Source: Heterotrichella gracilis
Taxonomy: Eukaryota; Sar; Xanthophyceae; Tribonematales; Xanthonemataceae
NCBI GenBank assembly: GCA_032358255.1
Contig: JAULBX010029324.1
Location: 1 to 22,274 of the forward strand
Direction: 5' to 3'
DNA: 22,274 nucleotides
The notes beneath the pieces were generated by a model, which worked only from the letters and a program-made list of their open reading frames with translations, was not told where the DNA came from and did not search any database. The position numbers and the translations under genes are program-made. Positions 1,054-20,705 of this stretch are shown in pieces (the first letter of the stretch is position 1; the number at the start of each line of letters is the position of its first letter).

Positions 1054-4000
1054 TCAGTTGACCAGGGCGGGTGCCGACTGGTTCTCGATGAATGCCGTGT
1101 AGTCCTGCAGGTTGCCGATTCGGTCCACCGGCCAGTACTTGAACACCGCCCTGCCCAGGATGTTCTCCACAGGTAGCGGCCCCCACAGGTGCGAGTCGTA
1201 GCTGTTGTTGCGGTTGTCACCCATCACAAATACCTGCAGGACATAAAAAATTTGAAGACATTTGAATGGGATTTGTAGGGATTTCAAGTGCAGGAAGGGC
1301 GCATCTAAGGGTTCAACCATGGCAATAGATACAAGGTATAGGGTTCCATAGCTAGGGATTCTCCACTTGGCAGAGGTTCCCACAGGTGGGAGTTGCAGCT
1401 GTTGTTTCAGTTGCCGCCCATCACAAACACCTGCAGGAAGGGCACATCCCAGGGTCCTTTGAGGGTTTGTAATGAGATTGGGGTTCTATTGATAGGGTTT
1501 TCCCATGGGCTTTGGCCACCCACAAGTGCGAGTGGTTGGTAGCTGCCTGTGATGACCGACATTTGCAAGCACCTGCAGGAAGGGCGCACTCAAGGTGTTT
1601 AAACGGGATTCAGTAACCAGGGGTTTCACGACCACGAAGGGCACAAGCCCTATGAAGGTGCAACAATGGATAACACAAAATCTGGGATGTTGCACACTGC
1701 CTCTAGCCTCCGGAGCTCCGATAGCACATGCAAAAGCCATGCGTGCTCACAGGGGCTTAATTGATAGATTCTATAGATCATTGATAGGGTATAAGGTTGA
1801 ATAGATGGGGGTTCTCCACTTGGCAGCGCCCCAGCCATAGCTGTTGTTGCGATCATCGCCCATCGCAAACAATCCTATCAAGATATACATTAAAACCCAG
1901 CTGCACTAATATTCTCATGCTTAAAACAGAGTTCTGATCCGCAGCAATGACCCTACTGTAAACCCTTAGCCAGCATGTGCAGTTTGTACCCCAAACCCCA
2001 GGATACCCAAGGGAATCACTGCATAGAAGCCAGGAATGCAGCCGCAACCTGAAACCCTAACTAAGGGTGAATGTGGGGGCACGCACGTGGCTCTCCGGCA
2101 CTGTGAGCTGCCCCATGTCATACTTGGGCGCCTCGAAGATGTAGGGTTCATTTCTGACCACCCCATTGACGATCACACGCCCCCCTTGCACCTGTATGCA
2201 CACAGGCAGCGGATGGTCGCAGCCTAGACTGCGGCAATTGTTTAATTCATCGTCTGTGTTTTCCTTGAACCTGCTGCACTGCTAAAGGCGCTGTGATACC
2301 ATGCGGTTTCCATGTTACTTTCCACGTTACTGGATGCAGGATGCCACCGCGCCAGGGTCAGAGCAGTGGGGATCATAGTTGCTGCGGCATGTGGTGATGC
2401 TCACATGCGCTGAGGCATCAAGCACATGCAGTGCTGCATGAGGATCCCATGCGCTGCTATGACGATCACATGTGGTGCTATGATGATCACATTTGCTGCT
2501 ATGATGATCACATGTGCTGCGGCCACCATGACACATGCCGTGATGATGATAACAAAGCACCCACCCTAGCTAGGGTTTGTCTCCAATGTGTTCGCCGCCC
2601 CCACCTGACCAACACCGCCAGTTTGTCAAAAAAAAAAGAAAGGACTCCACCAGGACTCCACCCAACATTGTGACCAACACCGACCCATGCTAAGGCTAAC
2701 ACCATTGTGCCAAACCCTAGCTAAGAGTTTACCTCCACCGTGTCCCCCGCCACCGCCACCACCCGCTTGATGAACACATCATCGTCAAAGAAGCCTGGCT
2801 TGGAGCCGTCAGCTCGCACAGGGTGGAAGATGATGACATCACCTGCCTTGGGCGACCTGCAATAATGAGTTCAGGATTTAACGTTCAATGTTAGGGTTTA
2901 GGGTGGAAGATGATGATGTCACCTGCCTTGGGCGACCTGCAAAAGAGAGTTGGGGGTGTAGGTTTTCGGGTTCGATGCCACCACTCGACTTGCCACATTC
3001 TGGCACAGATCCAACCTAAAGGGATTTTTACAGAATTTCAATGGGCACTGCACAGATGCGAATATCCCTCCTGAAATATACTGTTGCCCTACTGGTGTGC
3101 CCATATTAACAGGGTTTTGGATGCTTACCGTGCAAACCTGTAGGTTAGCTTCTCTGCCACCAGTCTGTCCCCAACATCAAAGGTTGGGAACATGGATAGG
3201 GAGGGGATGTAGCGAGGCTCGGCAATGAACCTGCACAGGGGGCGGTGGAATTGGTGGAAATACGTGTAATCAGGGATCCCCCTTATATTTGAATATAGGG
3301 GTGTGTGGATTTGGCGAATATACATGAAATTGCATATGAGAGGGGAACATGGATAGAGAGGGGATGTAGCGGGGCTCGGCAATGAACCTGCACGGGGGCG
3401 GTGGAATTCGAGGAAATACAGGAAATTAGGCGAAGGTAATTCATGGACAGAGAGGGGATGTGGCAGGGGGCGGCAATGACCCTGCAATAAATTGTGAAAT
3501 GTGCTGACATCTGGCCGCCTAGCATTGTACAACAGTCACTCCCGCCCACCCCCACCCCCCACTGCGCACCATCGAATGCTGTAGGATATGGCCAGCGCCA
3601 GGGCCACTGTGGTTACATCTTCCTTGCTGATCCACGAGGAGGGGCCACCGCCCCCGCCGTCGCCCCCGCCGCCCCCCGCCCCATTGTCGCCGTTGCCCCC
3701 CGAGCTGCCAAGTGGCGGCGCCTCCTTACTTGGCTCGGGGCCGAGCGGTGGTGCCTGGGGAACAGGTGTGTGTGTGGAGGGGGAGGGTGTGGGGTGGGTG
3801 GGTGCGTGTGCGTGTACGCACACGTAGCGTATTAGTTGGCAAGGCTTTGGTAGGGGTTCGGGGGTTTTGAGTAGGGTTTTGGCAGGTTTAGTGGTGCCTG
3901 CTCACCTAGATAGAGACCAAATGGCGGCGCCTGGAGACGAGGGGTGTCGGAAGGGTTTTGATGGGTTTTTACACGCGATTCAGTACAGTGACTTGGCAGA

Positions 4001-5162
4001 AAGGTGTTGTCAACTTGGAAGGTTTGCATACGGGGGGATATGGTATTGTGGAAGCTGATAGGGGTTTGGGGGTTTAAATTGCTGACAAACCAGCCCATTG
4101 ACTTGACAGGACAGTGCAAGAACATGTAGAGGGTTTTGCGGCTGCCAGCGAAGGGAGTCAAATTACAGCAGGGGCAACCCTGAAAACCCTAAACCCTTAG
4201 CCTAGTTGATAACTATTTTGCCTGGTGGGCGCTGGTGCCGCTGCTGGACAGAGCCTCACCCTAAATCCTAAACCTTTAGCCCGTGAATCATTCTAATTAT
4301 CTTCGTAGCCAGCAATGCACACGCACGCTGCAAATACACACGGTTTGATGTGCCAACCCCTTAGGCCTCAGCAACAAAGCAGTGTCGTCCAGTGAAATAC
4401 GCTGCTCAGCTGCACAACTCGGCTTCTACGATATATCGAGCTTTTGAACCTCGAAGTTCCGTATTCGTTGTATTATGCGGTTTCGCTATCGTCGGCAAGT
4501 CCCAGGTGATGAATGGGGGCCTTCCGATATCTGAAAGGAGTGGCTGCAGCCCAAGAAACCCTCCAGGTGGTGTCAGTCACACACCGGAATACGACAGGCT
4601 ATCCTCCATATACCGTGTACGCTTACATACGGTGTACACAACCCCATACATACCTTGTACCTTGCCATCCCCAATTTTTCCTTGGGCTTCCCATTAATCT
4701 GACTTATGATTTTAGCGGTGACGACGTCGGGACCAAATCGCAGCAGACTTTCGGTTGGTTAGTGTGTCACCGCAGCTGTATATGATAAGGTGCACCACCC
4801 ACTGGAAGCTAATAGCACTGGAGGTGTTTGCAACGGCAAAAACCCTAAACCCTACTGCAGGGCCCAGCCTAGGGTATGCTGGTTCGGCCTGTGCGACATT
4901 CCTGCGACCGTGCTGGTCAGTGCTAGTGGTATAGGAACCCCAAACCCTCCAGCAGGGTTTGTGTGCGTGGCAATACCTGTTGGTTGGGCAGCTGGCTTCT
5001 GCAGGTGAGGGTGGTGGAGCGGTGGTGGCGGTGGTGGTGGCACGGCTGCCGGAACAGCGCTGGCAGGGCCAAGGCGGCGGTGGAGAGAGGCAGGGGTGCG
5101 ACCACATGGCGTGGGCGGTGGTGGTGGGCGGCGCAGGGGGTGGTGAGGCGGAGGACGCGCAT
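1054..5162 (-). CDS. Chloroplast thylakoidal processing peptidase (type I signal peptidase, TPP/Plsp1 class)
   Basis: Membrane serine protease of the S26 family. Family members cleave thylakoid-transfer signals on the lumenal side of the thylakoid membrane. I read six minus-strand exons: 5162–4977, 3754–3570, 3230–3129, 2856–2733, 2191–2087 and 1233–1054. All junctions are GT–AG and the phases agree, giving about 293 aa, the usual size for plant enzymes. Visible elements are a Gly/Pro-rich linker (about 63–100), one membrane segment (about 107–126, [16 protein letters not shown]), the nucleophile box PSLSMFPT with S136, GDRLVAEK, the general-base box [11 protein letters not shown] with K188, and the box [15 protein letters not shown]. 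The Ser/Lys dyad is intact. Exon 1 is the least certain part: it rests only on frame, a good donor and a His/Arg/Ser-rich, transit-peptide-like composition. From exon 2 onward the protein has no Cys. Introns carry degenerate copies of exons 3, 4 and 6. Identity is confident; the N-terminus is not. Confidence 0.9.
1350..1870 (-). repeat. Three decayed copies of the last peptidase exon
   Basis: The terminal exon begins at 1233 with [14 protein letters not shown]. Upstream in the same intron are copies beginning near 1430 (about 1352–1430, VFVMGGN then a stop, then a recognisable HLWEPLP), near 1572 (about 1493–1572, more decayed) and near 1869 (about 1805–1869, with [10 protein letters not shown]). 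The first two also keep the CCTGCAG acceptor context. Each is broken by a stop, an indel or a substitution, so they are not alternative copies of the enzyme's active end. Confidence 0.8.
2446..2521. repeat. 21-bp minisatellite in the peptidase intron
   Basis: About 3.5 copies of a 21-bp unit resembling TGCTGCTATGATGATCACAT lie in the 2192–2732 intron, with more degenerate copies back to about 2400. Because 21 is a multiple of three, the plus strand appears to encode a Cys-Tyr-Asp-Asp-His repeat, but nothing supports its expression. Confidence 0.75.
2901..2936 (-). repeat. 80-bp-spaced copy of the start of peptidase exon 4
   Basis: The first 36 nt of exon 4 ([12 protein letters not shown], starting 2856) are repeated almost exactly, starting at 2936, with the same TGCAG acceptor context and [12 protein letters not shown] when read. 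The offset is exactly 80 bp, which shows a short tandem duplication of the exon edge plus its splice acceptor. The copy then runs into CCTAAACCC, a telomere-like motif. Confidence 0.85.
3345..3480 (-). repeat. Two copies of the catalytic-Ser exon start
   Basis: Exon 3 begins at 3230 with [16 protein letters not shown]. Copies begin at 3387 (down to about 3345, [15 protein letters not shown] retained) and at about 3480 (down to about 3441, [13 protein letters not shown]). Intronic sequence around 3245–3275 and 3400–3430 also matches between copies, so the repeated unit includes both exon and intron. Neither copy continues into the rest of the exon. Confidence 0.85.
4977..5162 (-). CDS. Candidate first exon of the peptidase (transit peptide)
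   Basis: This 62-codon stretch starts with ATG at 5162–5160 and ends in CAACAG before a GTATTG donor, in phase 0. That matches the phase-0 start of the next exon at 3754. The peptide begins [12 protein letters not shown] and is rich in Ala, Arg, His, Ser and Thr with few acidic residues, as expected for a chloroplast transit peptide. A TATA-like element lies 63–70 bp upstream. Other frames are also open here because the DNA is GC-rich and low in complexity, so an alternative first exon inside the 3755–4976 intron is possible. Confidence 0.5.
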
Positions 5163-6136
5163 GGTGGTGCTGGAGGTTGCACTGAGCTGGCCCAAGGGAC
5201 CCATCACTGGCAGTTGTACTAAGGTATATATAAGAGGCAGGAGATAAATGAGACAAGATAAAGTGTATCTTCGGGTGAGTTGGGGGGTCACGGATTGCAG
5301 GGGTGGTGCTGTGGGTGGTTTCCTCACAATGCATGCATATGTGGAATGAGAGTACAAGTGACCAGACTGACGCTGCAAAGTCTGTGACGCCAACTGGAGT
5401 TTCAGTAAAGACAATACCGTCCCAAAAGCGCGAATAGGCCCCCGAACCAAGCCTTGAGCCGCGTTGCAAACGCAAAACCAGTCCAGTCTAGGTGCATGCA
5501 TCGCCCAACAGAGCTTCGAAGACGGCTGCTATCCTGATTGGTTCACAGGCAGTGGAGGCAATCCTTGCCACGCTGGCATTTTTGTAGGCCGATTTTTTGC
5601 AGGGCGTGCTTTTTGAGGCCAGATTTTAGCTCCACGGTGGCAACAGGACGCACTTTAAACCGCAGCAATTTTGTGCACCAGGAGTCGTGTGCGCTTTTGC
5701 AGCCAATATTTCCTAGCGGGACTTGGCTCACCGGGTTGCCTCACTCTTAGCTCACAAGCAGCTGTGTGCGCCCGCAAACCCTGATCTGCCTCCCCACACA
5801 TACCAATAACACGTACGAACCAACTCTGTGGGTGCACGCTTTCACCCTCTGCTGCGGGTCGTGCCACAGCTGGTTGGTTAACTATCGCTCTGTATAGCAG
5901 GCAAGGTGAGCTGCGCCCACTGGTGCAGTGACAAGCTCTCGCCAATTGATAGCGTGCCTGGGGAAAGCAAGGGCAGCACGTATGCTTGCGGCCTTTCTGG
6001 AGCACTTGCGCGCAAGCTGAGCCCGGTGACAGTCTCTCAAGTCGAACCGTTCAGTCCCCATCCCTGGCAGTGGTGTGGGCGTTGGCAACGCATCCCCCGG
6101 TGCCCTCACAGCCATGGCACAGATCTAGACGCAGCC
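5163..6136. other. Divergent intergenic region between peptidase and LOV kinase
   Basis: About 970 bp separate the two proposed start codons, which point away from each other, so this region should hold both promoters. The minus-strand TATA-like run at 5225–5232 is the only strong element. The frame upstream of the kinase ATG stays open back to an ATG at 5906, so a longer kinase N-terminus cannot be excluded. I see no light-responsive element I could name with confidence. Confidence 0.5.
5225..5232 (-). promoter_or_regulatory. TATA-like element upstream of the peptidase gene
   Basis: An 8-bp TATATATA run (TTATATATACC on the minus strand) lies 63–70 bp before the proposed ATG at 5162. That spacing would allow transcription to start near 5195–5200 with a 5' leader of about 35 nt. 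The assignment is by position and sequence only. Confidence 0.4.
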
Positions 6137-6319
6137 ATGTCTTCCCCCAGCAACCAGGCAGCGCCAGGCTGCCTGGAGGCGGAGACAGCACCGCCACCAG
6201 CACCACCACCGCCACCGCCACCGCCACCAGGCCCTGCCCCAGAGGCGAACCCAGCCATGGGGCCTGGCCCACCCTCCCACCAAGCCAGATACAACCGGCA
6301 GAGCCCCTCAGAAGACCAG
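6137..6319 (+). CDS. Kinase exon 1: Pro-rich N-terminus
   Basis: This exon encodes 61 residues starting [11 protein letters not shown], with a run of about nine prolines (about 24–32) and no recognised domain. It ends GAAGACCAG before a GTGCGC donor in phase 0. The donor context (GACCAGGTGCGCT) recurs at about 6527–6545 in intron 1, a short echo of the exon end. The region is probably disordered. It is the least certain part of the kinase model. Confidence 0.65.
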
Positions 6320-9300
6320 GTGCGCTATGTGTGGGGGTTGGGCACCCGAACAACTCACAGTGCTCCTGAAACCAACCCTTAGTTGGGGGGGTGGGAGCTG
6401 CACTGGGTGTCGGCAACAGCAGGGGTGCTGAGTGGTGAGAGTGAGACTAGTCCTTGGCAGGTGGAGAACAGGGGTTGGGGACCACTAGTAAACCAGTGCG
6501 TGGAGTCTAGGCAGAGTCCATGAGCAGACCAGGTGCGCTGTGTGTGGGGGGGGCAGCTAGGCCCTCTTGTGCGGGGGTATGGGCTGGGTGGCCAGTAGCA
6601 GGGGCGCCCAGACTTGAAGGGCAAGTGGTCGGTTTGTCCTTTGGTGGGTGGGTTTGTGGACTGTTAAGCCACTTTGTGGGGGACTGGGTGGGGGATGCAG
6701 CCTCTGGGTCAGCAACTGCGCCGGGTGGTGGCAGCAGCAGGTGCGGGGGTGGTGGGTTACAGGGAAGGGGCGCTCTACTGCAGAGTACTCAGTCCCTTCG
6801 AGGGCTCACGTTTGGGTGGTGTCACAGTGTGTGGGGGTGTGAGCTGGGCAGGGTGTGCAGCAGGCGCAATTTTAGAAGCAGGAGTACACTGTGTTACCAT
6901 GCCCCAGAAAAGCAGGTTATTGTTATATCTTGCATTGAGGAAATTACCCATCAAACACGCGCTTCCTCTCCAATACCCTGTTTGCCCTTTAGTGCCAGTG
7001 ACTGCCTAGTAGGGCGTGTTTCAAGTTGCCTCGTGCAGCGGGAGAATGCATCGCACTGGTGCACCTGAGGACTTGTAATTGGAACACCATCCCATCCGTT
7101 CAGCAATGCAATGCACTGGCATCTGGGGCATCCGCACCTGTCGCACTAAACCTGGTTGCAACAGTATTGTGTGTGCTTGTGTCCAGTACCACAAGTACCA
7201 GTGCGTGCAGAAGGGCATTCTTAGCACTTATTCAATTTTCCTGCTGGCCATGTGGGTGTGTGCTTGCAGTACCTCCAGTTCCAACGCATGCAGCAGAAGC
7301 TAATGGACTGTGAGGAAGCCCTCGGCAGGGAGCGGGACAGGGCTGCGCTCTATGAACAGGAGTTGCAGCGGTTGAGGAGGTGAGGGACAACCCTAGCGTA
7401 GGGTTTCTGCTGTTATCTAGGTGTGGTGGCGGTGCGGCACGCAGAAGCAGAATCTGTATTGGCGGAGGGGTTAGAGGAGACATTGAAAAACCCTTAGGGT
7501 AGGGAGCGGGAGAGCGCTGCACCGTATGAACAGGAGTTGCAGCGGTTGAGGAGGTGAGGGGAAACCCTAGGGTGGGGTTTATGTCCAGCCAAGGGAGGGC
7601 ACGGGGCGACACGGGATCCCTGCACAAGGGAGGAAGAACATGGTGATGGTGTCCAATTGGGTTTCCGGTGACCTAATCATCCCTAGGGTGGGGTTTATGT
7701 CCAGTTGGGCTCCCTTGATGTAACAAACCCTAGGGTGGGGTTTGTGTCCAGATGGGCTCCCTTGACCTACCAAACCTTACGGTGGGGTTTATGTTCCAAG
7801 TGGGCTCCCACTCCACCCTCCAACCCCCCCCCCCCCCTCTCCTCCCTGCAGGCAAGCCTCCTGGGGATCCCCCTCCACCGACCAATCCCAGGTGCTGCCC
7901 TCCCCCGAGGGGGGGGACGACATGGTCATGGTGTCCAGGCGAGCCCTGGATCTGCTTCACCTCAAGGAGCGAGCCATGGATGCGGTGAAGGAAGGGATCA
8001 CGATCGCTGACTGCGCCCTGCCTGATATGCCACTGATCTATGCCAACCAGGCGTTTGCGCGTATGACGGGCTACCCGGTCAGCTATGCTGTGGGCAAGAA
8101 CTGCAGGTGGGTGGGGCGGGGAGGGGTTTGGGCAAGCAAGGGGTGGGTTGGGTGGTGGGGGCCATGCATTCCGTAGTAGAAGGGATCACCATCGCGGACT
8201 CTGCCTTGCCTGATATGCCACACTGGTGGTGGGGGGAGGGCCACGCTTCAGTGAAGAAGGGAGTACCACATGGGACTGCAAATCCCTATAAACCCCATTC
8301 CCTGCGCTCTACTCCGCGGCACAGCCAAACCCTGAGCCCTAACCACCCACCCACTGTTCAGGTTCCTGCAAGGCGAGGGCACAGACGCCACCACCTTACA
8401 GAACCTGCGATCGGCCATCTCTTCGGGTCAACCCTGTGTGGTGCAGCTGTGCAACTACAAGCGCAACGGCGACCCCTTTGTCAACTACCTATCCATCACC
8501 CCCATCCATGATGCGGGAGGGCGGCTCACGCACTACGTGGGCATCCAAGCTGACATCTCTGAGTTGGTGGAGCAGAAGCAAGCGGAGCTGGCGGCCAAGC
8601 ACGCCGCGGTGCAGGTGTGTATGTGTGTGGGCTTGGGGAGTTATATGAGTTGTGAGAGAGTGATGAGTGGGTGTTTGGAGGGGTGGGAAGAGTAGAATGG
8701 AATGGGGAATGATGGGGACGGCTGGCGCACTTGGTGGGGATTCAGAGTGACATCTCTGAGCCCGTGGAACAGAAGCAGGCGGAGCTTGCAGCCAAGCACG
8801 CTGCGGTGCAGGTGTGTGTGTGGAGTTAGAAGGGTAGTATGTTCTAGGGCAATGGCTGGGTTCTGAGTTGGCAGAGTGGGATGAGATGGAAGATCGATGG
8901 ACTCGGCTGTTGCACCACATGTGAACCCATCCTCACCCACGCAATCTGCAGGCGGCCGGCCCCACTGAGGCCAAGAGCCCGTTCCTCGCACGCATGAACC
9001 ATGACCTACAAATTGTGCCCCCCACATAAACCTACCCCCAGCAATGGACCTGCATTTTATCCAGCCCCCCCTCCCTATTCCCCTGGCACACACCTGTGCC
9101 CACCTCCGGAGCCAAATCCCACCCCTTCCCCCTCCCAACCCTGCAGGCGGCCGCCGCCACTGAGGCCAAGAGCCAGTTCCTTGCGCGCATGAGCCACGAG
9201 ATCCGCACCCCACTCAATGGCATGATTGCTGTGGGCCAGCTGCTAGCTGAGACGCAGCTGTCGCCTGGGCAGTGGGACCTGGTGAACACCATACGGTGCG

Positions 9301-12300
9301 TGGATGTTGAAATGTAGCAGAGTATTGGTAAAATGTTAATAGAGTGGGAAAATGGGGCAATGATCTTGTGCGCAGTCATCCACCCCAAAAGCAGAACAAC
9401 GACACAAGAAGTAACATGCGCATGTTTTTCAATTAAACATCATTGTGGTTGGCCAGCTCATGGCTGCGACGCAGCTTAACCCGTGCAGCGGGACCTGGTC
9501 AACCCCATACGGTGCGTGGGAATTATTTAGCACATCATTGATAATATGTAAGAGAATAAGAAAAAGATGGCAATGGTGGTTTTTATGTTCTAAACGGTAA
9601 CCCCCAAACAAGTAAAAGTCAATAGATTACATTCCCACGTCACCCCATTGACATTCTTGCGGTTGATCTGCTGCTGGCTGAGATGTGAAAATTCTCCTAA
9701 TTAAACCCTGAACCATTATGCATCCCCCAGGTGCTCCGGCAAAACCCTCCTGACCCTCATCACCGACATCCTATTCAAACCCTAAACCCCAATGCATCCC
9801 CCAGGTGCTCCGGCGAAACCCTTCTGACCCTCATCACCGACATCCTTGATTTTTCAAAGATTGAGGCTGGCAAGATGGTGCTCAACACCTCGTCATTCAG
9901 GCTGCAGACGGTGATTGAGGCGGCCATGGAGATTGCAGGGCTGCATGCAGCGCAGAAGAGATTGCAGGTGAGGGCGCTGTAGGGTTAGAGGGTTGCAAGC
10001 GGTCGCAGCAGTGTCTTCCCTTGATGAAACTTAGTTGCTCTGGTTTAGGGTGTAGGGTTTAGGGTTTAGGGTGACACTACACATTCCAACCACCACTGCT
10101 TCCTTTCGGGTGGCGTACCCAACACCAGGTGTCAAATTTGCCTTCCTTTGATGAAACTTAGTTCTTACCAATAAGTCCGCCAAGCGATTAGCAAGCAAGC
10201 TGAAGCAAAACAAAATATAAAACTCTTACTTGGGTTTATTTTTGCCAGGTGGCATATCATATATCGGACGACGTGCCCAAGGTGGTGGAGGGCGATGCCC
10301 AGCGCCTGCAGCAAATCCTGCTCAACGTGCTGAACAATGCTGTGAAGTTCACCGAGAGGGGCGAGATCTGCCTGGAGGTGTGGTGTGCACCCACCGACAG
10401 TGCAGAAGGGGAGCGCCAGGCGGCGGGAGGCGGGGAGGGCGCGCAACCGTCGGGGTCGTCTGATCGGGGGCCTGATCGGACGTCAGATGAGTTTGTCCGA
10501 GTATCGAGCGTGGATTTGCAGAGCAGCAAGATGCAGGTAAATTCCAAACCCTCAAGCCCTAAACAGACCAGCAAGATGGGGTTACAACCCTGAGCACCCA
10601 AACCCTATACAGACCAAGCAATGTGCAGGTAAATCCTAAGCCCTGAAACCTTACACAGACCAGCAAGATGCAAGTATGCTCTAAGCCCTAAACCCTACAC
10701 AACACAGCAAGGTGCTGGTATATGCTGGTGAAGTGCATTGGGGAGTTGGTTGATTGCGCAGGCATCGTTTACAATTATGAAGGTAATGATTACAAGTACG
10801 AAGGTAATGATTACCTGTGTGGTGCAGGGGTGGTGAGTCATTCACACTGTGCATTGGACAGCACAGTGTGAATGGCAGCCGGTGGATTGTGCGCTTTGTA
10901 GCATATAACGCAAACCCACTTCTGCAGATGCCTTCCCCCGGAATTGGCATCAAGGGTCCAAACCCTAATCGCTCACTCAAACCCTAAATCTCAATTCATA
11001 CGCTCTACTCCTGCAGATCTTCTTCTCTGTGCGCGATACGGGGATTGGCATCAAGGTTGGGGACCTTGGGAAGCTTTTCCAATCCTTCAGCCAAGTGGAT
11101 GCATCCCCAACACGGCGATACGGGGGATCGGGACTGGGACTGGCGATTTGCCAAAAATTGGCTGAAGCTATGGGCGGGGGGATCAGCGTGCAAAGCCAGG
11201 GGACAGGTAACACTGAGGGAGAGCAGGGAGGGGCTGAGTAGACAAAGCAGTACAATCCTGGGGATTTACAGTCTATAAATATGGACACATGTTGGTAATT
11301 AAAAATATATGTCATTGTATCTGTAATCGACACCGGGTGTCGCAAACTGGTGGATGCGATGGTCAGGGGCATGGGTGTGCAAAGTCAAGGGACAGATAAC
11401 ACTGGGAGGGAGCCGGGGAACAGCAGTTACACATGGAATGGTGGCGGAGGGGTGTAGTTTGACTCATACTGCAGGAGTGCGAATTCTTGTAGCATGCACA
11501 CTCTTTTTAGTGTGACAGGATTGTGGCGCATGGTACAGCAAGGAAGAAAGAAAGGTAGGTGACGAGCCAAGTACACACACAGGTGTGTTTCATGGAACGA
11601 CAAACCTGTACCTGAAACCAAATACATGGGGTATTTGGCAGCAAAGGAATTGTTGCGAATAAGCTTTTCCACGGCGTATGTACTGTAACACTTAACGGGA
11701 CTGTGTTTCGCTGCAGGCAAGGGCACCACCTTCACGTGGAGCTGCCGATTTGCAGTGCCTGAGCTGTACTACAAGAGCTGGATGGCCCGACAGGTGGCTG
11801 CCTCACGCCTCAAGGTGCGCACCCGCAAACCCTACACCCTACCTACTTTGTCGGCTGGGTACATTGCATCCTGTGTGTCCCAGTGGGCAGTACATTGGTT
11901 CTGCTAGTGGCATGGGTGTCAAGTGCGGCAAGGGTCAATTGCCTGTGTCTTCCCCCACATGGGTGCCCTTCCTTTCTGTCTTTCCTGCTCTGGTTGAGGC
12001 TGGCACTGGTCAGGGCATGTAGCTCCATGCATCTAGAAACTACTTGTGTGTACATGATGTTCATAAATCCTCATTTCTAACCCAAGTCCTGGATTTGTGA
12101 CGGGTCAACTGTCACCCAGACTTTTAGGGTATCCACAAACCCTTGGCCACACGCCCCGCAGGCCGCCGTGCCGTCCCCATCCCTCCCCACCCCCACCATC
12201 CCCGAGACCTCCACCCTGGATGTGGGTCGCCACCACCCTCACCCATCCAATGCCAGCGAGGAATGCACCATCACCTGCGAAGGTGAGGAACCCTACGATG

Positions 12301-15300
12301 GGGTTAAGGGTGTACCCATTGCTCGCTGTGGGTTGCATGCACATTGCATGCTTTGTCATGTCACTGAATTGTGCCCATTAGATGCATAAGTCAAAGGGCA
12401 TTGGCAATCACACACGTGTGAATATATGCGTATTATATTGCCTGGGGCCCACCACTGTACAGTCGAATCTCACTCTCCCCCACCTACCGTTGCACTGTAC
12501 ATTGATATCCCACCCACCCACCACCCACCATCCACCCCACCAAACCCTCACCCCCTACTTGTAGCCCCGGTGGAGCGTGAGGCATGGGGTGCAGCGACCT
12601 CCGGGCGCTGCTCGCTGGATAGCCAAGCAGACGAGGCAACTCTGAGGATGCTCAGGGGGAGGAAGGTAAGGGGAGAACACAGCCCTGTGTGGTGGTGGCA
12701 TTTTTTGTGGGAAAGAGGGGGGAGCTGGGGTCATTGTTGTGTGGGTGCTTGGACTGTCACACGAACAGTAGGGTGAAGGGTCTGGTCACAGGGTGCAGGG
12801 TTTCAAGAATTGACCTGCACCCCCACCCCCTCCCTCAGGTTCTGCTAGTCGAGCCATGTGACATGGTGCGGGGGGTGCTGGCTGCGGCGTTGTCCCACTG
12901 GGGATGCTCTGTGGCAGCGGCGAAAACGGAAATTCAAGCCGTCGCCCTACTCAGACACGGGATCCCCGGGACCCTCCTTGCCGGGATGGCAAACGGCAGC
13001 CCAGCGGTCCCGGGGATCACCAAAGGAGTTCTGGGGGCCGCAAAAAACGGGGCTACAGTATCCGGGATTGGGAACGGCGCGCTGTTGGGGACGCAGCAAC
13101 AAAACCAGCATCCCCATCCGTGTCTCCAACTTGAGCACTGTCCCCCGGCGGATCCCGGGGTCTACTCCGCCCCGGGACCCTACGACGTGGTTTTGATGGA
13201 CATGACCATGATGGGGCTGCTGCAGTCGCTGATGAGGTGAGGGTTTAGGGGTTAGGGCCTGAAGAACCCTCAACATTAGGGTTTTCGCACGTCTGTTTGC
13301 CCGTCTGGTGCCGTTCTCCTTGGCATCGGAATGGCTTGCATCACCCACCTACAGGGTCTAGGTGTTGGTGCAGGGTAAAGAGTTTAGGGTGTTGCCACTG
13401 TCTGCCGCTTGCCTGCTGGGTGTTGTAGGTTGTAGGTTGAAGGGGTTCATGGTCTGACCCTAAAACAAGAAGCTTAATGCCTTTTCCAAATGTGACGAGA
13501 TTGAGGCTGAGCGGCTGAGGTGACTGAAAGCCCCAATTCCTACTTCAAACCCTAAAACCTAGTGTCCACGCCGTTCCCACGTGTGACGAGATTGAGGCTG
13601 AGCGGCTGGTGCTGCTTGGGTGGCCTAGGTACAAACCCCTAAACACAAGGACTGTAATCTAATCCCTAAACCTGGACCCTAAATCCCAGTCCCTGTACCG
13701 TTCTCAGGTGTGACGAGATTGAGGCTGAGCGGCTGGTGCTGCTTGGGTGGCCAGGTCAGAATGAGCCTGACGGGGAGGCGGGGGTGGTGGAGCGGGAGGC
13801 GGCAGACAGGATGGAGGAGCTGTCGCCACCCATGTCCACATACCACATGACGGGTGAGAAAATCATAGACCTTGAACTCTATTACATGGGATTACAAAAG
13901 CCCAGGGGTTAAAAGGCTACAAACCCTTTCTATGGACCCACTGTGCTGCTGCAACCCCAAGCAAACCCTTTGCAAACCAGCATGTAATGCTTGCAAAGCC
14001 TGGAAAGGAGGGGGAGCTGCTGCACCCATATGCCCGGCGCACTGGATGTTGATCCCTCCACCCAACCCCACCACGCGCCACGCACAATCTAGTCCCTCCC
14101 CATTGCACCTAGCCACCCTTTCCCCCCCCCCCAATGCCCTCCTGACCTCCCCTTGCCCACATTTGCAGGCCCGCCCGCTGTTGCCCACCCGCGAGCAATG
14201 GCCAACAGCATGCCGCCACTTGAATAGCAACCCTAGACAGCTGGCCACCCCAGTCCTGGCACTCCCCTCCCCTTACATCCCCCACTTCGCTGCCACCTCC
14301 CCTTCTCGTCCTCTAATCTGACCCCCCCTTGCCCCCATTTGCAGGCCAGCCCGCTGTTGCCCGGCCCCCCCGAGCAATGGCCAACAGTATTATGCGCAGG
14401 AGCAGGCAGTTGGGATACGTCATAGTCACACGCCCCGTGAGACAGGTGGGGTTTTGCAGGGTTTGGGGTTATGTAGGGTTTTGCCAACAGCATCATGCGC
14501 GGGAGCAGGCAGCTGGGATACGTGGTAGTCACACGGCCAGTCAGACAGGTGAGGGCTGGGTAGTTTGGGTTCACATCAGGGTTACAGCGTCTTTTTGATA
14601 GGGTTTAGTTTGGGCTGCCACCGCCATGCGCCCCATGCGTCTAGCCTGGCAGGTGGGGGCGGGGATGGGGTTATTGGTAGGGTGTAAATACAAATGTGAA
14701 ATACCTTCCTTTGTTACCTATGCAGGGCCACCTGAAGCTGGCACTGGAGGAGGTCCTGTCGATGCAGCTCTGAAAACAATTCAAATACATACTTTTACTT
14801 ATAGAAAGTGAATTATATTCCTTTAATATATATGCAGGGCCGCTTGAAGCTGGCACTGGAGGAGGTCTTGTCGATGCAGCTCTGAAACAGTTCAAATACA
14901 TGTGTTTTATTATAAAATGTGATTTATATCCTTTTAATATGTTTGCAGGGCCGCCTGAAGCTGGCACTTGAGGAGGTTCTGTCCATGCAGATTGACCCCT
15001 CCCCTCCCGTGGAGGATCACTCCACACACCCACAGGTAGGGTTCCTGGTGTGGCACCATAGCAACCTTAAACCCTTAACCCCACAGGGAGGGTTCTGGTG
15101 TGGCACCACTGGGTCCTGTACTTGCTCCACTGGGAGCGAGCCTGGAGAAGTGAAATGAGTCCCAACCTGTGTTGATCCCCTGAAAGTAAGGTTGAACAAG
15201 GACACAAGAGGAAAAGGGGAAGCATGTTCTTTGGAAATTAAGAATGCTAAGGAATTTTCAACGTGAAGGCTGGAGGTTCATGTCTCATGCCTACTTTACT

Positions 15301-17186
15301 TTACCCGCATGCATGCAAGTCTGCAGCGGCTAACAAGAATTCACGCACCCCCCACCCCCCACCCCTTCATAGCCTGCCAACCCACTTGTACTGTGTGGTG
15401 GTGCAGGTGGGTGGGTCAGGGGGGATGGGGCACAATCAGGCCAACTGGGGAGGAAGCAACGGGCTGGTCCAAAACAGCATGATGCGGGTACCCTCAAACG
15501 GCACTCTCAAGCGGGCGGCACAGGTGGGCGAAATCCTAAACCCTGATTGCTCAGATATTACCCTAGATATCCCTTAACTCGAGGCCATATAAGTGTAGAG
15601 TGGGTACCCTCCAAGTGGGCGCCTCAGATGGGGCAAACCCTAAGAGCTAGACCCTGGACCCTAAACCCCGTAACATCATGGAGTGGGTATCTTCAATAGC
15701 ATACTCAAGTGGGAGGCTGAAATGGGGTAGAACTTGCATTTTAAACATGTTGTTTAGTGAGTGGTGCATTTTTGCAGTGGTGCTTTCATACGCTGCTCAT
15801 GCCGATTGCATAAATACACTCTCGAAGATGTGGTGAGCAAAATTGGTGGAATCTTCACGACTTGTCCGACCCTTGATTGTGGGCAATCATCCTCCCCTAC
15901 TACCCGTCCCAATTTCAAGCATGGCCCCCACCCCGCTCACCCCCCTACCCCCCACCCCCCACCAGTCCCACAGCAGCAACAGCCTGGACGCCATAGTGCC
16001 CGACACCCCCCCCAGCGCGCGCATCCTGCTGGCGGAAGACAACCTCATCAACATGAAGGTAAGGGTTCTAGGGTTTTAGAGTTGGACGGTTGAACCCTCC
16101 TGTTGTGCTGCTGGCGGAAGAGAACCTCGTCAACATGAAGGGCTTGCTTGACGCAAAGGCTTTGTACAAATTTCGACGTGGGGTTTTTGATAGGGGGTTT
16201 GTAGGGTTTGCTGTGGGGTTTGCGGTAAGGTCTGCCCCTGGTATACCTCACAGCGCGCGCTGCCTGCTGGCAGAAGATTGCCTTATTCGTAGCCTTGAAG
16301 TGTGTAAGCCACAAACCAAATCAAACCCTAGCCAAACCCTAAGTAAACCCTACCCACCCTCCAGGTTGCCCTAGGCATCCTCACCCGCATGGGCTTCACC
16401 TCAGTCACCACTGCCATGGATGGCCAGCAAGCACTGGATGAACTATACAGAGCGGGGCACCCAGACGCATTCGATGTCATTCTCATGGACCTCCATATGC
16501 CTATCAAGGTGGGTGGGTGGGGATGGGGGTGGTGTGGAGGATGGGGAGAGGCACATACCTTTCACAAGAAGGTAGATGGTGGTGGTTTGGGGTAACGGAC
16601 AGGTGGCGGTGGCGGTGGTGGGTCCAGCACGCATGCCTTTGGCACCGCCTGCGTGAACTGCACGCCACACATGTGTGTGGTGGATGGGCGGTCAAAGGCT
16701 GTTGGTGTGCTCGCTGCGGCCCTGCACATGAGGTGCTTTTGTGGGGGGATGGGGATGGGGATGGGGATGGGGTGGAGGTGTTGCCTGTCAAGGGCTGCTT
16801 TTGTGTGATGGGGATGGGTTGGGGGTGGGTTCAGGGCTGGCGGGGACAGGAAGGGAACACACAAGGGTCTGGGTGCCAACCCGCCCACCTCACTCACTCA
16901 CAATAGTGTAAATTCAACGTTAATAAAAACAATAGTAAGTAATAATCACTCGCCACCACCACAGGGCGGCATGGAGGTGGTCCAGGAGCTGCGGCGGGTG
17001 TGGCCGGGGGCCAAGGTGCGGGTGGTGGCGGTGACAGCGGATGCATTTGAGGACACACGGGACAACTGCATGGCCTGCGGCTTCGACGCCTGGCTGGCAA
17101 AACCCTTTAGGGTCGAGGACATGGTGGGGATCATGGCGGGCATACAGCGGGGGCGGGCGGACGCGGCGGCGCCTAAGGGGGTATGA
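6137..17186 (+). CDS. LOV-HK: LOV-domain hybrid histidine kinase (candidate blue-light receptor)
   Basis: Nineteen exons join in one frame to 1,072 aa: 6137–6319, 7270–7379, 7852–8106, 8362–8614, 9147–9295, 9805–9967, 10249–10536, 11017–11206, 11717–11814, 12162–12282, 12565–12665, 12839–13236, 13708–13853, 14345–14445, 14949–15035, 15407–15523, 15966–16058, 16365–16508 and 16965–17186. All introns are GT–AG. Domain order: Pro-rich N-terminus (1–61), coiled coil (62–98), LOV (about 137–250), HisKA with H284, HATPase (about 372–550), degenerate REC1 (about 638–881), linker, and REC2 (about 938–1060). The order resembles the LOV-HK described in Ostreococcus, with a second receiver. No membrane segment is evident, so a soluble protein is likely. 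I chose the ATG at 6137 (context GCAGCCATG); an in-frame ATG at 5906 is the alternative. Exons 9–11 and 14–16 are supported mainly by phase and splice sites. Many introns hold partial exon copies. Confidence 0.9.
7270..7379 (+). CDS. Kinase exon 2: coiled coil before LOV
   Basis: Residues 62–98 begin [19 protein letters not shown] and continue as a charged helix with regularly spaced Leu/Met and no Pro or Gly breaks in its second half. Coiled coils before LOV or PAS domains commonly support dimerisation. The acceptor is TTGCAG and the donor GGAG|GTGAGG. The last ~55 nt plus the donor are repeated at 7501–7562. Confidence 0.85.
7501..7562 (+). repeat. Copy of the end of kinase exon 2 with donor
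   Basis: About 60 bp match the end of exon 2 (7327–7386), offset by 174 bp, including GAACAGGAGTTGCAGCGGTT and the GGAGGTGAGGG donor. The copy has a few substitutions ([19 protein letters not shown]). It has no evident acceptor in front of it and sits in intron 2. Confidence 0.9.
7681..7821 (+). repeat. 47-bp tandem repeat in intron 2
   Basis: Three units begin at 7681, 7728 and about 7775, each with CCCTAGGGTGGGGTTTATGT (or a variant) and then TGGGCTCCC. A related start lies at about 7565. The unit core CCCTAGGGT resembles a telomere-type motif. A poly-C run (about 7824–7838) follows before the exon 3 acceptor. Confidence 0.85.
7852..8614 (+). other. LOV photosensor domain (exons 3 and 4)
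   Basis: Exons 7852–8106 and 8362–8614 encode the flavin-binding LOV core, about residues 137–250. Diagnostic residues are all visible: [14 protein letters not shown], the adduct motif GKNCRFLQ with C182 (the intron splits the codon of R183), the [18 protein letters not shown] strand pair with its two flavin-contacting Asn, and YVGIQADI with the Gln that signals flavin state. In the family, blue light forms a reversible Cys–FMN adduct. A charged helix ([19 protein letters not shown]) follows and links to the kinase, as in other LOV-HKs. Confidence 0.93.
8169..8223 (+). repeat. Copy of part of LOV exon 3
   Basis: About 50 bp match 7981–8035, offset by 188 bp, and read [16 protein letters not shown] against [16 protein letters not shown] in the real exon. 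The copy is internal to the exon: it has neither the acceptor nor the Cys motif, so it could not replace the photosensor. Confidence 0.85.
8727..8818 (+). repeat. Copy of the end of LOV exon 4 with donor
   Basis: About 90 bp match 8530–8621, offset by 197 bp. It reads [20 protein letters not shown] against [20 protein letters not shown], keeps the same frame without stops and ends at the same CAG|GTGTGT donor. It is one of the best preserved copies in the window. Confidence 0.9.
8952..9005 (+). repeat. Copy of the H-box exon start with acceptor
   Basis: About 50 bp match the start of exon 5 (9147 onward), offset by 195 bp, with the same CTGCAG acceptor. It reads [20 protein letters not shown], so even the His aligned with H284 remains. 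The match ends before the rest of the helix. Confidence 0.9.
9451..9690 (+). repeat. Copies of the end of kinase exon 5
   Basis: About 60 bp at 9451–9511 match 9235–9295, offset by 216 bp, including the CATACG|GTGCGTGG donor. The following AT-rich intron sequence also looks related. A third, poorer copy of the CTGCTGGCTGAGAT segment lies at about 9660–9686. Confidence 0.8.
9712..9855 (+). repeat. 74-bp tandem duplication covering the exon 6 start
   Basis: The exon 6 start at 9805 is preceded by a copy at 9731, offset by 74 bp. The match includes the TGCATCCCCCAG acceptor and about 45 nt of exon (GTGCTCCGGC… to GACATCCT). The copy then ends in CAAACCCTAAACCCC, a telomere-like motif. The downstream copy continues into DFSKIEAGK and is the real exon. 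Confidence 0.9.
10042..10073 (+). repeat. Interstitial TTTAGGG-type telomeric repeat
   Basis: This stretch reads GGTTTAGGG, TGTAGGG, TTTAGGG, TTTAGGG in succession: four units, one of them variant. It is the longest such run in the window. It lies about 75 nt into intron 7, after a GTGAGGG donor. Confidence 0.85.
10523..10720 (+). repeat. 45-bp tandem array of the exon 7 end and donor
   Basis: Five units carry the last ~15 nt of exon 7 (CAGCAAGATGCAG) and the first ~30 nt of the intron, at offsets of 45, 47, 45 and 44 bp. Copy 3 (GCAGGTAAATCC) and copy 4 (GCAAGTATGC) retain donor-like sequence. Each unit includes a telomere-like CCCTAAACC stretch or a variant of it. Confidence 0.85.
10770..10811 (+). 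repeat. Two 21-bp direct repeats
   Basis: The unit TACAA-TA-GAAGGTAATGAT occurs twice in tandem (10770–10790 and 10791–10811) with two differences, in intron 7 just before the hairpin at 10840. Confidence 0.7.
10840..10873. repeat. Perfect 13-bp inverted repeat (hairpin)
   Basis: ATTCACACTGTGC (10840–10852) is followed by an 8-nt spacer and its exact reverse complement (10861–10873). It lies in intron 7. It has no T-tract and is not a bacterial terminator; it may be a remnant of a small inverted-repeat element. Confidence 0.85.
10931..10957 (+). repeat. Short copy of the exon 8 start
   Basis: GGAATTGGCATCAAGGG at about 10939–10955 echoes GGGATTGGCATCAAGGTTG in exon 8 (the G1 box), offset by 102 bp, and a CTGCAG lies just before it. 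The match is short, so I am less sure of it than of the others. Confidence 0.6.
11345..11412 (+). repeat. Copy of the end of kinase exon 8 with donor
   Basis: This stretch matches the end of exon 8 and the start of its intron (about 11155–11222), including GTGCAAAGTCAAGGGACAG and then ATAACACTG where the real donor reads GTAACACTG. The donor GT has become AT, so this copy is dead for splicing. The offset is about 190 bp. Confidence 0.85.
12964..13181 (+). repeat. 12-bp direct repeats bounding the REC1 insert
   Basis: CCCCGGGACCCT occurs at 12964–12975 and 13170–13181, roughly flanking the low-complexity insert in REC1. CCCGGG and CCGGGAT motifs recur between them. The 206-bp offset is not a multiple of three, so this is not a clean in-frame duplication. 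Confidence 0.6.
13486..13757 (+). repeat. Three copies of the exon 13 start; only the last has an acceptor
   Basis: TGTGACGAGATTGAGGCTGA occurs at 13491, 13582 and 13709. The second copy runs on through GGTGCTGCTTGGGTGGCC before diverging; the first diverges sooner. The base context before each is CCAAA, CCACG and CTCAGG, so only the third has an AG acceptor, and it joins exon 12 in frame. Confidence 0.92.
14140..14548 (+). repeat. Copies around kinase exon 14
   Basis: The real exon (14345–14445) is preceded by a copy starting 14169, with the same ATTTGCAG acceptor but ending in a stop soon after ANSM. It is followed by a copy at 14483–14548 that matches its second half ([21 protein letters not shown]) and its donor. 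Offsets are 176 and 103 bp. Confidence 0.9.
14726..14990 (+). repeat. Triplicated 111–112-bp exon–intron unit at exon 15
   Basis: GGCC-C-TGAAGCTGGCACT begins at 14726, 14838 and 14949, each after a TGCAG acceptor, and the AT-rich intron between copies is repeated too. Copies 1 and 2 read G(H/R)[13 protein letters not shown] and then TGA. Copy 3 reads on as [11 protein letters not shown] and joins exon 16 in phase, so it is the functional exon. Confidence 0.95.
15592..15730 (+). repeat. Two copies of the end of kinase exon 16
   Basis: GAGTGGGTACCCTCCAAGTG (from 15598) and GAGTGGGTATCTTCAATAGC (about 15680) resemble the exon 16 end (about 15478–15523: ATGCGGGTACCCTCAAACGG). Each runs on through a copy of the exon end. 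Neither keeps the CAG|GT donor: they read CAGATG and GAAATG. Confidence 0.75.
16106..16301 (+). repeat. Two copies of the REC2 first-strand exon
   Basis: Exon 17 ends [12 protein letters not shown]. Copies at 16106–16140 ([12 protein letters not shown], offset 82 bp) and about 16249–16301 ([11 protein letters not shown], then a TGAAGTGTGTAAG donor-like context) follow in intron 17. Both are truncated at the 5' side or altered at the Asp-Asn pair. Confidence 0.88.
16742..16773 (+). repeat. (GGGGAT)n run with G-quadruplex potential
   Basis: Four to five GGGGAT units follow one another in the intron before the last kinase exon. Runs of four G separated by two bases fit the simple G-quadruplex pattern on the sense strand. 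Related GATGGG repeats lie around 16520–16550 and 16808–16830. Confidence 0.75.
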
Positions 17187-17530
17187 TGGGGATGCTTGGT
17201 CCCCGGGTCGCTTGGCGCTCCCTTTTGGACCCGCGGAAAGAAAATCCTTTGGTGCTGAGGGCCTGGTGTGTGGGTGCGATTCCTGGCTGGCCAATCCCAT
17301 CCAGGTGGAGTGCCTATTGGGGATCAGAGCAGGCATGGAGCTGGGACAGTGCCAAACGGGGTGTGTGTGATGGGAGATGTTGCGTGCGGGAGCCGCCTGG
17401 CGCATCCTTTGTGGTCCCATGAGCCCCTTGGATGGGGTTGAGGGCCTGGCATGCGGGTGGCTGGCAAGCCCCTCTCAGGACATGCGTAGAAGGACTGCAG
17501 CAATGGCGGGGATGGGGTGTGGGATGGGGC
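17187..17530 (+). repeat. Two copies of the REC2 C-terminal exon in the 3' flank
   Basis: The exon segment around 17067–17150 ([20 protein letters not shown]) has a copy at about 17267–17350 (GCDSWLANPIQVECLLGI) and a more decayed one at about 17444–17517. Flanking sequence (GGGCCTGG, 17260 and 17442) repeats with a unit of about 182 bp. Both lie after the stop, where splice sites are not needed, so the duplications are not limited to introns. Confidence 0.85.
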
Positions 17531-20500: not shown

Positions 20501-20705
20501 CAATCAATAAATTAAACTTTTGAGGCTGCAGACAGTCAAGAAAAGCTACAGCGATGGAGAAGCTACAGCGATGTAAGTGCATACATGCACGCCAGCTGAG
20601 AAGCCAGGTTGGCATGTATGGGTGCAGCAATGTGCAAGCAAACCACAGGCGTAGCCCATGCAGCAAGACCAGCGAGGCAAATCAGCAAGCAAGCCACAGT
20701 CAAGA
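17531..20705. other. Gene-free stretch between kinase and bZIP gene
   Basis: The right part probably includes the 3' UTR of the bZIP gene, the left part the kinase 3' UTR. A plus-strand TGTAA at 18516–18520 is the first I notice past the kinase stop, over 1.3 kb away, so its use is doubtful. Open frames of 60–160 codons occur on both strands, but none has a recognisable domain or phase-consistent exon neighbours. A palindrome lies at 18457–18477. I see no tRNA, rRNA or complete transposon. Confidence 0.5.
18457..18477. repeat. Short palindrome ACACAGTGAG/CTCACTGTGT
   Basis: A 10-bp inverted repeat around one central base; as RNA it would form a stem of about eight pairs. It shares the CACAGTG core with the hairpin at 10840–10873, and a further TTTCACACAGTGCGCACTGG lies just before it. 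Confidence 0.65.

Follow-up and report, generated by a model that had tools for sequence, protein, structure and literature searches.

Two genes of a green alga, on opposite strands of one nuclear contig, carry in their introns direct copies of the neighbouring exon edges; the copies stand at two characteristic distances from their sources and, in the shorter-distance class, the species' own telomere repeat often lies between source and copy. We read these echoes as scars of double-strand-break repair in or beside introns, with the shorter class generated by staggered-break duplication with telomere filler, and hold this reading to be slightly on the probable side of an even judgement. Intron growth is a long-standing question, and its scars are frequently illegible, being too short or too old. 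Here they are long, frequent and of two classes, one with telomere repeat between the copies. That this repeat often sits between copies in a single size class suggests that introns have grown through a particular kind of break repair, and it ties that growth to a definable repair reaction, one open to testing in a culturable alga.

The window, that is, the whole stretch of 22,274 nucleotides that was analysed, contains a LOV-type histidine kinase gene and a signal-peptidase-like gene (Table 1). Joining the kinase exons in frame yields a 1,072-residue protein with PAS, HisKA, HATPase_c and Response_reg domains (Pfam), and relatives were found in Coccomyxa, Myrmecia, Chlamydomonas eustigma and others; the 18 introns are 173-950 bp long. 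The other gene we take to specify a type I signal peptidase-like protein, judging by the catalytic-site sequence of its predicted product; its modelled exons are in frame at 3729-3570, 3229-3129, 2856-2733, 2191-2087 and 1233-1054, where 3729 is the edge of the first modelled exon and not its established start. The assembly yielded no match to the RuBisCO large subunit (rbcL).

Table 1. The two genes of the window and the local copies of their exon sequence (sources of copies in brackets)
Feature	Position	Strand	Offset or period (bp)	Basis and remarks
LOV-type hybrid histidine kinase gene	6137..17187	+		19 exons; in-frame model, Pfam, relatives
Copy of the end of exon 1 with its donor (6297-6344)	6510..6555	+	213	BLAST
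Copy of the end of exon 2 with its donor and 30 intron bp (7324-7409)	7498..7583	+	174	BLAST; by eye, a telomere-like run immediately precedes the copy
Copy of inner part of exon 3 (7973-8033)	8161..8221	+	188	BLAST
Copy of the end of exon 4 with its donor (8508-8625)	8709..8822	+	~200	BLAST
Copy of the start of exon 5 with its acceptor (9141-9199)	8946..9004	+	195	BLAST
Copy of the end of exon 5 with its donor and 67 intron bp (9221-9362)	9438..9575	+	~215	
Tandem copy of the start of exon 6 with its acceptor (9769-9846)	9695..9772	+	74	CCCTAAA-like run at the join
Several partial copies of the end of exon 7 with its donor	10537..10726	+	period ~46	CCCTAAA-like runs
Copy of the end of exon 8 with its donor (11155-11228)	11344..11417	+	189	BLAST
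Two copies of acceptor and exon 13 start (13676-13756)	13479..13630	+		Telomere-like block at ~13657-13673, between copies and real exon edge
Copy of acceptor and exon 14 start (14318-14390)	14142..14211	+	176	BLAST
Copy of exon 14 end and donor (14380-14451)	14483..14554	+	103	BLAST; TTTAGGG-like block at ~14456-14471 separates exon end and copy
Start of exon 15 with its acceptor, copied twice (real copy up to 14990)	14688..14879	+	period ~112	
Copy of exon 17 end (16026-16059)	16108..16141	+	82	BLAST; three telomere-like motifs in 16060-16107, between exon end and copy
Type I signal peptidase-like gene	1054..3729	-		Five exons modelled; in-frame model
Copy of acceptor edge of last peptidase exon (1163-1241)	1359..1438	-	196	BLAST
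Copy of stop-codon end of last peptidase exon (1057-1130)	943..1015	-	114	BLAST; telomere-like motif between source and copy
Copy of acceptor edge of exon 2856-2733 (2820-2871)	2900..2951	-	80	BLAST; telomere-like run between source and copy
Acceptor edge of exon 3229-3129 (3186-3274), copied twice	3343..3486	-		BLAST

Compared with itself (blastn, E<=1e-3, low-complexity filter off), the window gives 28 pairs in direct orientation, at offsets of 74-453 bp, and none that is inverted. A stricter comparison, filtered and at E<=1e-5, gives 24 pairs, all of them direct and at most 400 bp apart. Sixty dinucleotide-preserving shuffles (five for each of 12 sequences, with pairs counted from at least 40 bits) gave no pairs of any kind, so that the exon-edge echoes named in the original prediction are real. 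That prediction credited 13 of the 19 kinase exons with copies. BLAST pairs provide at least one copy for 12 of them, and the last exon resembles ~17250-17350 by eye only. For the peptidase it named three of six exons; acceptor-edge copies are confirmed for three, among five modelled, and one of these is also copied at its stop-codon end. Among the 20 primary pairs within the two genes, which we chose from the unfiltered list, exon bases are part of 17, and 16 extend across a splice edge (thus placing a direct repeat of the adjacent exon end inside the intron); three are intron-only, two of these belonging to exon-derived families. All 16 edge-covering pairs have tandem geometry and, as had been claimed, the copies are not whole exons: none of the 20 pairs spans both edges of an exon.

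The two genes are not isolated exceptions. Pairs are present in 12 of the 14 sampled loci with alga-like GC, and an excess of local recurrence is also seen in whole-genome word counts: genome-wide there are 95 recurrences of the donor-like word AGGTRAGGG at a distance of 85-115 bp, as against 36 at 130-160, 18 at 225-255 and 16 at 400-430 bp. A second peak in these counts is weak, the 43 recurrences at 175-205 bp exceeding those at 225-255 and 400-430 bp and being close to those at 130-160 bp (P 0.5). In 42 of the first 50 listed 85-115 bp sequences, some of which are neighbours in one array, telomere motif lies between the words. Kinesin regions (64 of 93 kinesin matches mapped, 31 introns accepted by a score cut-off) have six pair families on recognised domain exons, all of which involve exon bases in our reading and only two of which have a firm splice edge; four more pairs lie outside the recognised exons and are unclassed. 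The 207-kb set of sampled loci excludes L003, L004 and L007 (GC 0.33-0.36) and also L013 and L016, which have no pairs; the last two (GC 0.577 and 0.539) may be from the alga, and including them, as the Tandem Repeats Finder (TRF) set of alga-like loci does, lowers the density. In L010, 8,284 of the 10,000 bases are N, and L017 is omitted from one offset histogram only. The assembly is a draft, and of its three low-GC sampled loci two are densely filled by long open frames and are probably bacterial contigs, which might raise the suspicion that the copies are artefacts of assembly. That is extremely improbable: the copies differ by ~7-26% (5th-95th percentile) and occur across many contigs, and the genome-wide counts agree.

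The offsets of BLAST pairs fall into two classes, ~103±25 and ~193±11 bp (BIC 648.6 for a two-component and 676.3 for a one-component fit), the limits of the classes and of the trough having been chosen after inspection of the data. Merging pairs at most 600 bp apart left 83 clusters; class statistics come from the 63 that consist of a single pair, the 20 multi-pair clusters being omitted, and seven clusters with offsets between the classes were assigned to neither. Identity in the 63 single pairs has a median of 83% (5th-95th percentile 74-93%), in agreement with the predicted repeated local duplication with mixed decay. Most of the offsets that had been named are reproduced by BLAST. The offset of 45 bp is not: no BLAST pair has an offset below 60 bp, though TRF reports periods of 46 and 47, and two pairs of the window with offsets of ~92 and ~95, which sit in multi-pair clusters outside the class statistics, are at twice a 46-47-bp unit. 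In the alga-like loci TRF finds 21 arrays of period 10-19, 24 of period 20-59 and 17 of period at least 60, the last at 70-138 (15 arrays), 182 and 191; the gap between 138 and 182 is in line with the two offset classes, and the arrays of period 20-59 mean that ordinary tandem duplication certainly also occurs.

The unit that lies between copies is the species' own telomere repeat, CCCTAAA, often degenerate, arrays of which are found at contig starts and also within contigs. (The original prediction had missed this filler.) In the short class, 23 AGGGTT/AACCCT motifs occur in 963 bp between copies, while the like-sized outer flanks have one in 843 bp and one in 863 bp; 12 of 20 spacers bear the motif, as do two of 40 flanks (Fisher P 6e-6). 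The comparison takes in spacers of at least 10 bp (20 of 32 short-class and 23 of 24 long-class pairs) with 4-5 bases of each copy, and telomere filler was not found between the copies of the 23 long-class pairs. Taking the telomere-like blocks as the point of departure, 20 of 111 testable ones (of 113) are flanked by direct duplications and none by inverted ones; at 3,000 random places there were 91 direct and two inverted (P 8e-10 for the direct ones). Telomere-like runs are dense (146 arrays in ~207 kb), and the 60 bases at either end of introns are generally enriched in their motifs, also in introns such as 9968-10248 and 12283-12564 that have no BLAST echo, so that some of the motifs may predate the duplication beside which they now lie.

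That enrichment is part of a simpler account, in which plain tandem duplication (by unequal exchange, slippage or fill-in of nicked ends) is followed by decay, the motifs being part of the duplicated unit because intron ends are rich in them. The invariable tandem geometry of the edge pairs in the two genes and the many periods of the TRF arrays agree with it. So do the 13 of 32 short-class pairs (as against only two of 24 in the long class) that align over at least 90% of the offset and are near-complete tandems, and also the weak resemblance of spacers to their flanks (mean z ~0.9-1.1), which implies that some spacers are decayed tandem units. Yet a motif belonging to the unit should recur outside a copy, where there are two in 1,706 bp, and in simulated tandem duplications almost all of the unit can still be aligned after decay (medians 96 and 178 bp), whereas the observed median ratio of aligned length to offset is 0.75 in the short class and 0.39 in the long. 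Plain tandem duplication is, we think, possible but rather unlikely as the general explanation. Slippage, which the original prediction had proposed, may contribute, as the short arrays permit, and is insufficient alone, given the two offset classes and aligned parts so much shorter than the offset. Alternatively, a mobile element or introner inserting with long target-site duplications would leave insertions within introns bounded by direct repeats, and introners are reported from algae (PMC9860276), but at E<=1e-3 the 22 long-class spacers have no match in any other sampled locus (three have short matches elsewhere in their own). The matches of short-class spacers are telomere-type, except for one ambiguous 29-bp match inside L017, and duplications of 30-140 bp are far above the 3-9 bp given for some introner families (PMC9860276), which makes insertion very improbable.

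Repair of a staggered break with telomere filler, the reading that we prefer for the short class, would begin with a break near a splice site, the overhanging stretch (~30-90 bp, often the exon end and a little intron) being doubled on both sides as the break heals. Telomerase, or capture of telomeric DNA, would probably supply the telomere repeat that comes to separate the two copies before the ends are joined. One copy would remain the working exon edge as the intronic one decayed; with repeated rounds introns would become longer, and decoy splice sites and telomere-like runs would be left close to their ends. The motif is found in only 12 of the 20 short-class pairs with a spacer, which limits this reading. 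The long class, with its tandem geometry and no telomere filler, may reflect a second repair route. Nucleosome spacing as the source of the 193-bp class is unsupported: the sole figure found is ~160 bp, reported for two Chlamydomonas promoters (PMC6952782). A more sweeping proposition, which we regard as unlikely, is that breaks at exon-intron borders are routinely handled as chromosome ends, telomerase adding TTTAGGG to overhangs and the telomere C-strand machinery filling in to give X-telomere-X scars; telomere maintenance enzymes would then be a main source of intron length and decoy splice sites, next to a second ~193 bp route, perhaps chromatin-spaced. Two-ended telomerase extension, which would leave a G run followed by a C run, is not favoured: within 25 bp, G-then-C runs (11) are no commoner than C-then-G runs (15), and extension of both break ends is thus unsupported.

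Are exon edges preferred, as had also been claimed? When the ages in a neutral simulation are fitted to the identities observed (residual of the fit 0.079), 60% of detected events fall at edges, compared with which both the exon-involving pairs (17/20, P 0.015) and the edge-covering pairs (16/20, P 0.048) are in excess. Exon-edge copies are thus somewhat above neutral expectation; the excess being modest, confined to one window and set against a simplified decay, it neither establishes targeting nor rules it out. Tolerated random placements would fall at edges in 30-55% of cases, and an earlier decay simulation gave 52-60% edge events among those detected with uniform ages and 79-88% for the age class 0.2-0.3, which yields identities of ~77%, under the observed median. 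The excess, and the retention of splice sites by several copies, would fit retention of the copies by selection, for instance because they regulate splicing or serve as alternative exons. Several copies also have frame-breaking gaps, those of exon 15 reach an in-frame stop, and the copies are decayed to the extent given above, all of which makes retention by selection quite improbable.

It had been supposed that no named system matches, which is too strong: in Daphnia pulex, staggered double-strand-break repair has been proposed for intron gain and growth (PMC4202315). As reported there, Daphnia introns likewise contain direct repeats that include a copy of the adjacent exon's terminal bases, and repeated internal staggered breaks are proposed to lengthen introns, as we propose here. 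The exon-end repeats of Daphnia are 4-12 bp long, compared with ~30-140 bp here, and the two offset classes, with telomere filler in one, set the alga apart. In human and horse, interstitial telomeric repeats are reported as insertions at double-strand breaks, sometimes with the direct duplication of the site that is expected of a staggered break (PMC7215372). Plain flanking duplication, ascribed to staggered breaks, accompanies 3 of 66 telomeric insertions in the horse (PMC7215372), in comparison with 20 of 111 telomere-like blocks in the alga, where such runs are dense. Daphnia intron growth and mammalian telomeric-repeat insertion are the closest known systems; among the matches listed in openly licensed literature on telomere-like repeats with introns and on intron gain in algae, no title or abstract opening describes the combination seen here. 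CST and DNA polymerase alpha, a complex that also serves telomeres, make small tandem duplications at breaks with 3' overhangs by filling both overhangs and then joining (PMC8355091). The outcome is a local direct duplication, as here; the insertions spoken of are <100 bp, and the abstract and introduction describe no telomere filler. Introns are also said to be gained by tandem genomic duplication of AGGT-bearing segments (PMC3443670), in which, as here, a local copy carries splice-site sequence; that process creates a new intron, whereas the copies in the alga sit within existing ones. Introners, which are reported to be biased to nucleosome linkers, also lengthen introns in algae and other eukaryotes (PMC9860276). 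They form families of shared sequence, whereas only telomere-type sequence is clearly common among the spacers described here.

Compared with itself, the window yields 28 direct pairs and no inverted ones; shuffled sequences yield none. The original prediction, that introns here are packed with decayed copies of neighbouring exon edges, thus describes something real. Judged by eye from alignments that include the flanks, a copy takes in a splice edge (donor or acceptor), some exon sequence and between one and a few tens of intron bases, and its ends are mostly abrupt. Exon bases are involved in 17 of the 20 primary pairs within the two genes. All 16 of the edge-covering pairs in these genes have the geometry of tandem duplication, copies of donor edges sitting downstream and copies of acceptor edges upstream. 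Translated in frame, the gene model of the histidine kinase encodes 1,072 residues that include PAS, HisKA, HATPase and receiver domains, and the sequence GKNCRFLQG is the mark of a LOV photoreceptor domain; the protein's best matches with names include the green algae Coccomyxa, Myrmecia and Chlamydomonas eustigma. On the opposite strand, five exons splice together to encode a signal-peptidase-like protein. Further features of the window are tabulated below.

Other features of the window, by position
Positions	Strand	Feature	Remarks
2431-2520		21-bp unit repeated in tandem (4.3 copies)	In an intron of the peptidase gene
20700-22000	-	More open stretches, exon-like; possibly a third gene	By eye, similar to coiled-coil or bZIP sequence; no pairs from self-comparison

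The accompanying suggestion that such echoes are general in this genome, and are not confined to two genes, is borne out by genome-wide word counts (see below) and by local pairs in 12 of the 14 loci with alga-like GC, among 17 loci sampled by place from the assembly (68.5 Mb, 903 contigs), in which the window is contig C680 of 22,274 bp. The three low-GC loci have no pairs within 400 bp. These sampled loci (L003, L004 and L007, on contigs C1 and C100) have a GC content of 0.33-0.36, two of the three are densely covered by long open frames, and their contigs are probably bacterial or other foreign contaminants. Pair density is uneven, pairs of at least 45 bits being present in just 4 of 18 kinesin gene regions, and the window lies on the dense side of the range. 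A search of the whole assembly for rbcL, the gene of the RuBisCO large subunit, found none; the plastid genome may have been omitted from the assembly, or the gene may be missing from the alga itself.

The ~207 kb of sampled sequence contains 83 clusters, 63 of them single pairs (with an identity of at least 92% in 5 of the 63), whose offsets are described by a mixture of two components, at ~103 bp (sd 25) and 193 bp (sd 11), in preference to one (BIC 648.6 vs 676.3). The trough between the short and long classes, whose limits of 138-174 bp were picked post hoc on data already seen, holds 7 pairs against a log-normal expectation of 14.3 (P 0.015), or 9 against 19.5 when the best pair of each cluster is taken (P 0.003). 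Two loci that were retrieved once the two-class pattern had been noticed, and that still belong to the 207-kb set, have offsets of 88, 94, 102, 164, 179, 183, 195, 197, 215 and 235 bp, with one of 680. Short tandem units escape BLAST: with Tandem Repeats Finder there are a further 24 arrays of period 20-59 and 21 of period 10-19, and the program's periods of at least 60 run from 70 to 138, followed by 182 and 191. Arrays of period 20-25 recur at other sampled loci and do not look like echoes. Over all 68.5 Mb, contaminant contigs included, the donor-like word AGGTRAGGG recurs, measured start to start, 27 times at 40-70 bp, 95 at 85-115, 36 at 130-160, 43 at 175-205, 18 at 225-255 and 16 at 400-430 (reversed-pattern controls: 8, 2, 4, 5, 0 and 0, respectively). 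In these counts the short class is clear, and the long class is seen only by comparison with the far background, which it exceeds.

What lies between the copies is, in the short class, rich in the telomere repeat of this genome, TTTAGGG. Contigs C70, C140, C526 and C609 begin with arrays of four or more units, and such arrays are internal to many contigs as well; in all, 145 overlapping matches were counted, with 100 places listed, against 0 for the reversed control. Genome-wide, the word GTRAGGGTTTAGG is present in 243 copies and its reverse in 10. The 963 bp between short-class copies contain 23 telomere motifs, or 23.9 per kb, compared with 6.3 per kb in the copies and 1.2 in the outer flanks. 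The long class, with 3.1 per kb between copies and 2.2-3.6 outside, is near the background of 2.56. With telomere letters masked, direct duplications flank 20 of 111 tested telomere-like blocks vs 91 of 3,000 random places; inverted duplications flank none of the 111. Genome-wide, a telomere motif lies between donor-like sites in 42 of the first 50 listed pairs at 85-115 bp and in 22 of 42 at 175-205 bp (first 80 letters of each), a comparison affected by the bias of the seed word AGGTRAGGG to telomere-like surroundings. In a kinesin gene on contig C131 (loci L032 and L044) an intron opens with GTAAGGGTTTAGG, directly followed by several telomere units, after which the exon end is repeated: an almost ideal example of two direct copies with a telomere run between them (X-telomere-X).

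The most likely route to X-telomere-X is through staggered breaks. A staggered double-strand break would occur, both overhangs would become double-stranded, and telomere repeat would be put between the two filled overhangs before joining; the breaks, the enzymes and the order of events are what we infer. The two halves of such a reaction are known separately: in the horse, 3 of 66 loci have telomeric insertions that are flanked by a duplication and ascribed to staggered breaks (PMC7215372), and CST with polymerase alpha fills 3' overhangs, generating small tandem duplications (PMC8355091). Internal staggered breaks have been proposed, in a Daphnia study, to lengthen young introns (PMC4202315). 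The assertion that no named system matches must be narrowed accordingly, the Daphnia and telomeric-insertion work being related, but among the openly licensed papers listed, titles and abstract openings disclosed no case in which telomere repeat separates copies of exon edges at such density.

Several observations fit this mechanism poorly. The long class is without telomere filler and its offset is more regular than its parts (sd 11, vs 24 each for aligned length and spacer, which are correlated at r = -0.89 over 22 pairs); its spacers have no relatives at other sampled loci. Spacers retain weak similarity to their flanks, and near-complete tandems (13 of 32 short-class pairs) without telomere filler exist. 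A first simulation predicted alignments of 96 and 178 bp, longer than those observed, which leaves two options, true filler or a later loss of middle parts. Pairs of high identity being few, young copies may be scarce or may have been collapsed during assembly.

Splice-edge copies survive because one copy preserves the exon, and stay recognisable longer because decay hits the other copy alone. When random tandem duplication and decay were simulated with ages fitted to the observed identities, edge events made up 60% of those detected, vs 16-17 of 20 observed (P 0.015-0.048); geometry and slower fading therefore account for much of the edge bias, and perhaps part is left beyond them.

Telomere motifs also gather at intron ends. 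The first 60 bases of the 18 kinase introns contain AGGGTT 11 times (6 introns; 1.1 in shuffles) and AACCCT 10 times (9 introns; 0.54), and the last 60 bases contain AACCCT 10 times (7 introns; 1.05). For 31 kinesin introns, the counts are 8 for AGGGTT over the first 60 bases (3 introns; 1.17) and 9 for AACCCT over the last 60 (7 introns; 1.01). In both the window and the kinesin introns, TTTAGGG-strand motifs are found near starts and CCCTAAA-strand motifs near ends (in the kinase, at starts too), a polarity that could originate in selection against cryptic acceptors of the form TTTAG close to the 3' end or in a polarity of repair.
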